DNA of 64,000 bases from Pseudobutyrivibrio sp. (GTDB lineage: Bacteria > Bacillota > Clostridia > Lachnospirales > Lachnospiraceae), in contig NZ_JAFUSK010000002.1 of assembly GCF_017471675.1 (NCBI RefSeq), positions 17,851 through 81,850 on the forward strand. Direction: 5' to 3'. Below, one piece after another: positions 27,656-29,708 of this stretch (position 1 is its first letter; each line of letters starts with the position of its first letter). Both the position numbers and the translations under genes were made by a program. The notes under the pieces are model-generated. The model did no database searches. It was not told the DNA's origin and worked only from the letters and a program-made list of their open reading frames with translations.

Positions 27656-29308
27656 ATGATGAGATCACTTTTCTCTGGTGTGGCAGGTCTTAAGACACAT
27701 CAGACAAAAATGGATGTTATTGGTAATAACATCTCTAACGTTAACACAGTTGCGTTCAAATCATCTTCAACAACGTTTTCTGATATTATGTATCAGACAA
27801 CTTCACAGGCATCTGGTGCCACTGCAACCCGTGGTGGTGTAAATGCTAAGCAGATTGGTCTTGGTGTTACCAATGGAGCAACAAAAATATCTGTTACTTC
27901 ATCAGGCGCTGCCCAGTCTACTGGTGATGCTCTTGATATCAGATTATCTGACACTAATACAACCAACTTTTTTGTAGTAAATAATGGCTCTGAGAATGTA
28001 TTTACAAGAGCAGGTTCATTCTATATTGATGGTAACGGTAACCTTGCCATGACAACAACTGGTTACTTGGTTATGGGATGGCAGGTTGATGCCCAGAACC
28101 CATCTGTAATCAACAAGAACACTGTAACTCCACTTAGAGTAATGCAGGCTGCAAATCTTACATCTCCTCCTGAGGCTACAACAGAGGCTAGCTTCAGTGG
28201 TGTAATTGATAAATATGATTCACAGTTTAAATCTTCTAGTGGATACGCCCGCTCATTTACTTTGTACGATAACTTAGGATATTCATATACAGCTAAATTT
28301 GCTATTAAGCTGGAGGACGGGGAAACTGGCAAGTATTCAGTTAGTTTAACTGGTGTTTATGATACTAACAATAACAATATTCTGGCTGATTATCTAAGTG
28401 AATCAGCAGATAATACTTTAGATAAGATTTTTGGTGGAGATAATCCTACACCATTTACTAAGGTATACTCACTAAGTACTGGAGTTACTAGTGGCGGAAG
28501 CTCTGATTTAGTTACATACGATGGTGTTACATACCAGTATAATGCAAAAGAAAATAAATTTGTGGCGGCTGATAATTCAGGTAAAACACTAACATTGGCT
28601 CAGGTCTGTGGGCTTGATGATGATAGCGCAGTTATTGGAGTAGATGTTTCTGGAAGTACCATTACACTTACAATGGCTTCTTCAGAGCTTCAGTTTCATA
28701 CCAAAGAAGGTAATTTGATTTATGCCGGAAGCGAAGGCAATACAAAAATAACATTACATACATCCCTTCTTGGACCAAATACAAGTAATACAGACCCATT
28801 AACAGGAGATAATATTAACAGAGCTTTATCTGATATATCTATCGATTTTGCCCAGCTTATGAACTATGATAACGGCGGTACATCAACTGCTGTTGCAAAC
28901 CGTGGTGTTCCAGATGGAACTATTATGAGAGGTGAAGGTAAGAAGCTCGGTACAATGACTGGCCTTTCAGTATCAAATGATGGTAAGATTTATGGCTCAT
29001 ATTCAAATGGTAACACAGTTCTTTTAGGACAGATTGCAGCTGCTCAATTCGCTAACGCATCTGGTCTTGAAGAAATTGGTAACAACTGTTACAAGACAAC
29101 ACTTAACTCAGGAGAGTTTGATGGTATTGGGGTTGACATTTCAGCTGATGGTTCTTCTATGAACACAGGACAGCTTGAAATGGCTAACGTAGACCTTTCT
29201 GCGGAGTTCACCGACATGATTACCACTCAACGTGGTTTCCAGGCAAACTCACGTATTATCACCGTATCCGACACAATGCTTGAAGAACTTATCAACCTCA
29301 AACGATAA
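27656..29308 (+). CDS. flgE: Flagellar hook protein FlgE
   Basis: 550 residues from ATG 27656 (ATG 27659 is equally possible). GAGGAGGT lies 8 nt upstream, and the protein then starts with the family N-terminus MRSLFSGVAGLKTHQTKMDVIGNNISNVNTVAFKSSS. Translation from 27587 would add 23 residues foreign to the family. The C-terminus VDLSAEFTDMITTQRGFQANSRIITVSDTMLEELINLKR is the paired hook/rod helix. The middle is the variable exposed hook domain. It is the last gene before the terminator at 29329. Confidence 0.95.
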   Translation: MMRSLFSGVAGLKTHQTKMDVIGNNISNVNTVAFKSSSTTFSDIMYQTTSQASGATATRGGVNAKQIGLGVTNGATKISVTSSGAAQSTGDALDIRLSDTNTTNFFVVNNGSENVFTRAGSFYIDGNGNLAMTTTGYLVMGWQVDAQNPSVINKNTVTPLRVMQAANLTSPPEATTEASFSGVIDKYDSQFKSSSGYARSFTLYDNLGYSYTAKFAIKLEDGETGKYSVSLTGVYDTNNNNILADYLSESADNTLDKIFGGDNPTPFTKVYSLSTGVTSGGSSDLVTYDGVTYQYNAKENKFVAADNSGKTLTLAQVCGLDDDSAVIGVDVSGSTITLTMASSELQFHTKEGNLIYAGSEGNTKITLHTSLLGPNTSNTDPLTGDNINRALSDISIDFAQLMNYDNGGTSTAVANRGVPDGTIMRGEGKKLGTMTGLSVSNDGKIYGSYSNGNTVLLGQIAAAQFANASGLEEIGNNCYKTTLNSGEFDGIGVDISADGSSMNTGQLEMANVDLSAEFTDMITTQRGFQANSRIITVSDTMLEELINLKR

Positions 29309-29328
29309 TTTAGTTTAGGTTAAATCTC

Positions 29329-29360
29329 GCTAGGGCGTCTACACGCCCTAGCTATTTTTT
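29329..29360 (+). terminator. Intrinsic terminator after flgE
   Basis: GCTAGGGCGT (29329-29338), CTAC loop, ACGCCCTAGC (29343-29352), then TATTTTTTA. A perfect 10-bp GC-rich stem with a T run. It divides the flagellar cluster into flgB-flgE and motA onward. Confidence 0.88.
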
Positions 29361-29368
29361 ATGTATAG

Positions 29369-29500
29369 TAAGCGGCTACTCAACCTAGGCAAGCGCGAGC
29401 AAGAGGGCCCCATTCAGCTAAGGAGGGACCCTTTAGGGAGGTTCCCTTGGCTGAAACGGGAGATGGCTTGCGGGAGCATGTAATTCTTGGAGGCCGCTTA
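29369..29500 (+). ncRNA. Unrecognised GC-rich structured element between flgE and motA
   Basis: 132 nt closed by TAAGCGGC (29369-29376) and its perfect complement GCCGCTTA (29493-29500). Inside are GCAAGC (29389-29394) with GCTTGC (29466-29471), then a CCC/GGG step, then an 11-bp stem TTCAGCTAAGG with CCTTGGCTGAA (one G-U pair), capped by a GGGACC/GGTTCC hairpin. GC content is clearly higher than the AT-rich flanks. It holds no sensible reading frame. I could not match it to a riboswitch or RNA class I know. The strand is uncertain; + is assumed from the operon. Confidence 0.5.
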
Positions 29501-29526
29501 GAATAATAGTGTAATGAAATTTTAAA

Positions 29527-29541
29527 AATTTTGTGAATATT
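29527..29541. promoter_or_regulatory. Candidate CodY box upstream of motA
   Basis: AATTTTGTGAATATT matches 13 of 15 positions of the CodY consensus. It lies 64 bp before the motA -35 element, after the structured element. The surroundings are AT-rich, which raises the chance of a random match. Confidence 0.35.
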
Positions 29542-29604
29542 CTATATTTAGTGGTTAGGACATGGAAAAAACACAATAATATGAGAGGATTTTATGTATA
29601 AAAG

Positions 29605-29633
29605 TAGACAATAAAGTTTAAATCTAGTAAAAT
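29605..29633 (+). promoter_or_regulatory. Candidate sigma-A promoter for motA and downstream genes
   Basis: TAGACA (29605-29610), exact 17-bp spacer, TAAAAT (29628-29633). With the terminator at 29329 it would start a second flagellar transcript. In the 400-bp gap 29309-29708 the order is terminator, structured element, CodY-like site, this promoter and the motA ribosome site. flbD, which often lies here in other Firmicutes, is absent. Confidence 0.5.
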
Positions 29634-29708
29634 ATACACAAAAGTTAAAGCGCGTAATTCCATGCAATTTGGCTAGATTTTCTAAAAAATTACGGGGTGG
29701 TGAGAGTT

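Follow-up and report, generated by a model that had tools for sequence, protein, structure and literature searches.

A GC-rich hairpin block between flgE and motA

The window analysed here is a 64,000-nucleotide stretch of Pseudobutyrivibrio sp. DNA. A GC-rich block (29369-29500) sits in it between the end of a gene that we take, following the first-pass annotation, to be flgE (29308) and a gene at the motA position (29697), the protein of which gave its best NCBIfam matches to flagellar stator families, all below their cut-offs. The GC content of the block is 57.6%. Its surroundings had been described as AT-rich, which is true just downstream (20.5% GC) and not just upstream, where the flank is 40% GC and not strongly AT-rich. 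The earlier view that the block holds no plausible reading frame was borne out: the overlapping open reading frames run to only 40 amino acids (ATG, plus strand) and 47 amino acids (TTG, minus strand).

The placement proposed for the block, after a terminator and before a promoter, was also recovered, with both sites being consensus matches only (Table 1); in the region scanned, the sole terminator-like site precedes the block and none follows it. Positions 29519-29690, before motA, are recognisably similar in many loci of the genus, including the motif TAGACA...TAAAAT, and this stretch looks like a conserved flagellar promoter region. With the flgE terminator on one side of it and the motA promoter region on the other, the block is most likely a tolerated insertion that would have little effect on motA.

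The 8-bp perfect closing stem described previously is exact, and the nested stem is present (29408-29423 with 29445-29460, 81% complementary). The minimum free energy of the block was -56 kcal/mol, compared with a mean of -46.4 for shuffled sequences (z = -2.5), and 1 of 200 shuffles was equally good. Taken alone, the folding energy is therefore only moderately unusual; the decisive evidence for a structured element is provided by its covarying homologues.

Table 1. Positions of the hairpin element, its parts and neighbouring sites in the window
Feature	Position	Strand	Basis
Whole dispersed hairpin element copy, including closing stem	29369-29500	+	stem, fold, BLAST repeats
Closing stem, 5' arm, copy-specific, TAAGCGGC (pairs with GCCGCTTA)	29369-29376	+	direct pairing, stem statistics
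Closing stem, 3' arm, copy-specific, GCCGCTTA	29493-29500	+	direct pairing, stem statistics
Conserved core, match to covariance model R1	29378-29490	+	124.3 bits, E 4.8e-35, with this copy itself in the R1 training set; sole R1 match in the 64-kb window
Helix 1, 5' side, with internal-loop half GCGA at 29395-29398	29390-29403	+	consensus structure, covariation, loop conservation
Helix 1, 3' side, with internal-loop half GGGA at 29472-29475	29467-29480	+	consensus structure, covariation, loop conservation
Helix 2, 5' side	29410-29413	+	covariation
Helix 2, 3' side	29456-29459	+	covariation
Helix 3, 5' side	29415-29423	+	covariation
Helix 3, 3' side	29445-29453	+	covariation
Terminator-like site after flgE (outside the element)	29329-29352	+	consensus match only
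Promoter-like site before motA (context)	29605-29633	+	consensus match only; similar stretch in many genus loci
Additional promoter-like site	29521-29548		consensus match only

Copy number and taxonomic range

The block had been called unrecognised, and for Rfam this holds: no family of Rfam 15 matched the whole window at or above its gathering threshold, and none matched positions 29300-29600 at E values up to 5. A BLAST search of the block against its own genome returned 42 matches on many contigs. These two results led to the rejection of a unique small RNA or an Rfam RNA as the identity of the block. A covariance model (R1), trained on a redundancy-thinned set of 48 copies, found 52 matches in the same genome, which are counted as matches rather than proven separate insertions because copies may be cut or enlarged.

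Matches to R1 were present in 27 of 29 genomes of the genus, a group of rumen bacteria. The larger searches used stricter filters and scored at most the best 12 candidates per genome, so that weak relatives may be missed. On that basis, three of 299 family genomes matched, two of them members of the genus and the third (G086) the only one of 297 outside it, with a weak, single-locus match; in 391 class genomes, again scoring at most the best 12 candidates per genome, there were two matching genomes, both from the genus. The G086 match (33.5 bits) is apparently one locus split across the ends of two contigs (L198 31-133 and L201 1-94). Its hairpin has the same GCGA/GGGA internal loop and lies antisense to both neighbours, which we presume from their appearance to be uvrB and uvrA. 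An exact pattern of one stem variant was found in 10 of 392 order genomes, all in the genus, and a pattern scan of named genomes, from which the window genome's own records were possibly left out, gave 42 stretches, all from Pseudobutyrivibrio. Viral contigs yielded 38 hits to one pattern variant, none of which matched R1 at E values up to 0.01, and a viral origin was rejected on this ground. Among the matches listed from open-licence PMC texts there was no paper on such a Pseudobutyrivibrio repeat, which is not proof of its absence from print.

Contigs break inside copies of the element (the end of L031, the start of L021) or where a copy would be expected (L041, the start of the G006 contig before motA); assemblies may thus under-count or misplace it. 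Separately, L020:2359-2462 and L020:19310-19431 have numerous matches in six relatives and resemble further families of dispersed repeats; L020:14708-14825 gave one listed match of the same sort among those relatives.

Covarying helices, near-invariant internal loops and a modular apex

The element is a rod-like hairpin of approximately 130 nt with a core of 104-124 nt, reaching up to about 220 nt where extra modules are present. Its consensus structure of 23 pairs was examined in 48 aligned copies, the same alignment from which the structure was derived, which favours it over the slid controls: 95.1% of cells were paired, against 84.5% in shuffled alignments and 29-41% when the columns were slid by one to three positions. 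Both sides had changed in 15 of the 23 pairs, compared with 8.3 in shuffles of the 48 copies. Two pairs are particularly telling, one being C-G in 31 copies, G-C in 14 and U-A in three, the other G-C in 28 and A-U in 20, with none broken in either.

Conservation is as high in the internal loops as in the helices (0.914 for loop columns, against 0.909 for paired columns), and the GCGA/GGGA loop bases are almost invariant across copies. The apical part is a mosaic; it is of several unrelated types, some of which are enlarged by extra hairpins.

The first-pass annotation had proposed to judge the block by compensatory changes among homologues on the one hand and by scattered genomic copies on the other, and both were found. 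Compensatory changes among the homologues show the structure to be conserved; the many scattered copies mean that it belongs to a repeat element and not, as had been one suggestion, to a unique trans-acting RNA.

Presence and absence at orthologous sites

The flgE-motA gap was compared across 26 loci of the genus with motA, two of which (G021 and G018) were identified by motA alone. Six had an R1 match and 20 did not, and one of the 20 (G006) may yet have a copy, as its contig starts 184 nt before motA, close to the place expected for one. The window copy is common to three genomes (G000, G015 and G008). Two others (G003 and G002) carry other versions of the element, G014 has a copy antisense to motA, and G025 retains only the right end of the element, with another hairpin family in the terminator. 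Other sites behaved similarly. In the leader of a sucrose phosphorylase gene (best NCBIfam hit, below the model's cut-off), the full element was found in G000 and G016, a short form in G015 and an unrelated hairpin in G025 and G006. At one terminator site, the full form occurs in G000 and a short form in G015, with a different hairpin in G008 and G025.

These observations support the earlier proposal of a short palindromic mobile element, in that there are many dispersed copies and that close species differ in presence or absence at a site. They leave little room for the proposal that the block encodes a trans-acting small RNA or a processed 3' RNA of flgE. The compact fold and covarying helices would suit such an RNA, but the genome holds 52 R1 matches, the window copy is shared at flgE-motA by only three of 26 loci, and the only terminator-like site in the scanned region precedes the block; a 3' RNA of flgE, in particular, is difficult to reconcile with the 20 loci that have motA and no match. 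We regard this explanation as highly improbable.

Copy-specific closing stems

Copies were examined for pairing directly outside the core (92 copies, orthologues included, taken from 113 full or joined copies after removal of duplicates and of those near a locus end). In 86 of the 92, the flanks pair over at least five Watson-Crick bases, compared with 11% when the flanks of different copies are combined. The sequence of the closing stem differs between loci, although a GCGGC/GCCGC type recurs.

Occupied and unoccupied alleles were then compared in 57 pairs derived from 18 occupied copies; a pair was admitted if its stem had 6 bp or more and no more than 75 nt were left at the site. Neither arm of the stem was present in the unoccupied allele of 46 pairs, one arm in nine and both arms in two. 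The flgE-motA gap contributed 33 of the 57 pairs; among the other 24, neither arm was found in 16. On these counts we rejected the idea that the closing stem belonged to an older hairpin whose loop had received the insertion. The hairpin and its closing stem mostly come and go together, since neither arm is present in 46 of the 57 unoccupied alleles. The two alleles with both arms are short forms from which the inner rod alone is missing, and are compatible with either loss or gain of the rod. Many unoccupied alleles bear another hairpin instead, and some could be old losses. No consistent short target-site duplication was seen in the unoccupied alleles, as read by eye only. Short forms without the inner rod (L066, L076 and L150) occur at three sites in two genomes; two were folded, and a 4-nt loop closes the stem where the rod is absent.

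Orientation and downstream genes

The setting of the element was determined for 122 unique copies with enough flank, 35 of them from the window's own genome, drawn from an enlarged set of 177 full or joined copies. The set includes orthologues, so its members are not independent, and genes were called crudely. Both flanking genes were sense to the element in 73 copies and antisense in 18, with 31 other or unresolved; the corresponding numbers in its own genome were 21, five and nine. Binomial p values for the sense bias, uncorrected for kinship, were 5e-9 and 0.0025, respectively. An earlier and cruder gene call in its own genome had given 20 sense and five antisense of 37. The commonest setting is between genes of the same direction, and the downstream sense gene starts 25-70 nt past the core in 48 of 85 copies.

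Of 26 downstream entries listed for its own genome (motA excluded), 19 proteins were scanned. Matches above cut-off include L-lactate dehydrogenase, isocitrate dehydrogenase, ribulose-phosphate epimerase, mannonate dehydratase, PurM, valyl-tRNA synthetase and acetolactate synthase, while two of the 19 had no match at E values up to 1e-20. No common pathway is apparent among the 19, and this diversity argues against a switch that responds to a single ligand.

A regulatory leader RNA as the main rival

The main rival explanation is that the element is primarily a cis-regulatory leader RNA, binding a protein or signal just before ribosome-binding sites, with the other copies as by-products. Riboswitch-type leader RNAs combine a conserved core, a variable closing helix (P1) and a position before the ribosome-binding site. 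The element resembles them in its core and closing helix and, in many copies, in its position; it differs in having no Rfam match, no common downstream pathway, and turnover between presence and absence.

A striking case is found ahead of a gene for 3-hydroxybutyryl-CoA dehydrogenase (named from its best NCBIfam hit, which is below cut-off), where six leader versions from six genomes share the arrangement AAGTGA-P1...P1'-GGACTAA. GGACTAA lies 26-28 nt before the ATG in all six, and P1 is different in each, at 3 to 13 bp with G-U pairs allowed. However, P1 was taken as the longest run after any TGA, two of the runs being only 3 and 5 bp, and four of the six versions (L147, L159, L166 and L167) were fetched with a pattern containing CGGACTAA, so that GGACTAA was partly selected. 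The interior is the Pseudobutyrivibrio element in three versions but an unrelated GTAG...GTAAC hairpin in the other three, one of which (L166) lacks an exact GTAG. A general CGGACTAA...AGGAG leader motif was rejected, as it occurred six times in G000 and its reversed-pattern control seven times, with no enrichment.

The sense bias, the start-codon spacing and the near-invariant internal loops also favour a leader RNA, as does the excess of G-U over A-C cells in the modelled pairs (67 against 25), though 33 of the 67 G-U cells, about half, come from one column pair. Against it, copies are often missing at orthologous sites, some sit in terminators, and the downstream genes share no pathway. Weighing these points, a primary role as a leader RNA is a serious possibility but an unlikely one.

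Hairpins of the second family, GTAG-N-CAAGC...GGCTTG-N-CGTAAC, occur in leaders and terminators of the genus, inside copy-specific stems. Fifteen distinct pattern matches were found (e.g. L155 1422-1497, L156, L161, L167 and L039). One speculative reading, which we consider doubtful, is hairpin-cassette exchange, in which the leader docking motifs AAGUGA...GGACUAA would hold interchangeable rods drawn from two unrelated families; every rod would bring a self-paired stem of its own and might be enlarged by hairpins inserted into it.

Candidate mobilisers

A further alternative is that the element is a REP/BIME-type repeat moved by a RAYT, a Y1 tyrosine transposase acting on hairpins, with a lost or highly diverged transposase also conceivable. 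The dispersed extragenic hairpins fit this idea, and the second hairpin family begins with GTAG, the tag of one REP super-family (PMC3733652). In the 20 nt on the left side of the core, GTAG was present in 11 of the 122 copies, compared with three in a control stretch further out (CGTC occurs in one of 122 copies, compared with seven in the control); this excess faintly suggests a connection with the second hairpin family or with GTAG-tagged repeats. The other 111 copies have no such tag, however, and Y1_Tnp was found in only 10 of 29 genomes of the genus; these include the copy-rich G006, G014, G016 and G003, but in G000, G008, G015 and G025, which are also copy-rich, it was not found. The reverse-transcriptase domain RVT_1 was found in 15 of the 29 (including G000, G015, G006 and G016) and, among copy-rich genomes, was not found in G008, G023, G025 and G014. 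Both enzymes were rejected as mobilisers, because their presence does not track copy number, and a RAYT-driven origin appears very unlikely.

Relation to known repeats

No fixed terminal inverted repeats common to all copies were found, unlike in a MITE. The element has the many dispersed, modular and foldable copies of BOX-like repeats, together with the compensatory changes, above controls, of a structured RNA.

The BOX elements of Streptococcus pneumoniae (PMC3049150) are dispersed, modular and predicted to fold if transcribed, and form 5' and 3' extensions of operons; they consist of boxA, boxB (absent or repeated) and boxC, and are over-represented between convergent genes. The Pseudobutyrivibrio element is likewise dispersed, modular and foldable, but unrelated hairpin modules replace or extend the middle of one long rod, the closing stem is particular to each copy, and the copies lie most commonly between genes of the same direction. 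REP/BIME sequences (PMC3733652) are extragenic palindromes in many copies, probably transcribed and thought to act on mRNA, the individual REPs being 20-40 bp with a GTAG or CGTC tag; RAYTs are the hypothesised movers of the GTAG type. The element shares with them its nature as a many-copy extragenic palindrome, but exceeds 100 nt, is mostly untagged, and is present in genomes with no detected Y1 transposase. The mitochondrial hairpin elements DHE and RHE of a sponge (PMC2800124) are repetitive intergenic hairpins with conserved stems and varying loops. The element is also a repetitive hairpin spread through intergenic DNA; its internal loops are as conserved as its helices, and the helices covary.

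The element appears to represent a repeat family that is new and strongly structured. BOX and BIME are the nearest to it in type; it departs from them in having stems specific to each copy, inner modules that can be exchanged, and internal loops that are conserved.

Interpretation

The most probable explanation is that the block belongs to a non-autonomous structured repeat dispersed through Pseudobutyrivibrio genomes. The hairpin would spread as a unit, and transcribed copies would serve as cis elements at the ends of mRNAs. That it is a repeat, with covarying helices and near-invariant internal loops, and confined to the genus in the sampled genomes apart from the G086 locus, was observed directly, as were the copy-specific stems, mosaic apical parts, presence and absence at orthologous sites, and sense bias. 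Spread as a unit is the likely reading of the BLAST repeats, the R1 copies, the pairing of closing stems and the unoccupied alleles that lack the arms. The whole hairpin may spread by transposition or template-copying through an enzyme, being gained or lost as a unit, usually with its closing stem. Once transcribed, the rod would be a cis element at mRNA ends that could block exonucleases, offer a site to a nuclease or other protein, or separate neighbouring genes; we infer this cis action from orientation, spacing and the conserved loops. Several points count against a repeat of this kind: neither Y1 transposase nor reverse transcriptase follows the copy-rich genomes as a mobiliser should, the conserved loops look more like those of a functional RNA than of a purely selfish hairpin, and the only relative found outside the genus lies antisense to its neighbours.

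Bacterial dispersed repeats are usually placed in one of two classes, selfish palindromes or conserved regulatory RNAs. The present family bears marks of both, combining repeat-like gain and loss with near-invariant loops, covarying helices and a sense-strand bias. Stems that are specific to each copy, and that appear and vanish with the hairpin, pose the question of how a palindrome moves with, or makes, a new paired stem, a question that the named isolates in the genus make testable. If cassette exchange were true, the mRNA leaders of the genus would be rewritten as whole folded units by an enzyme.
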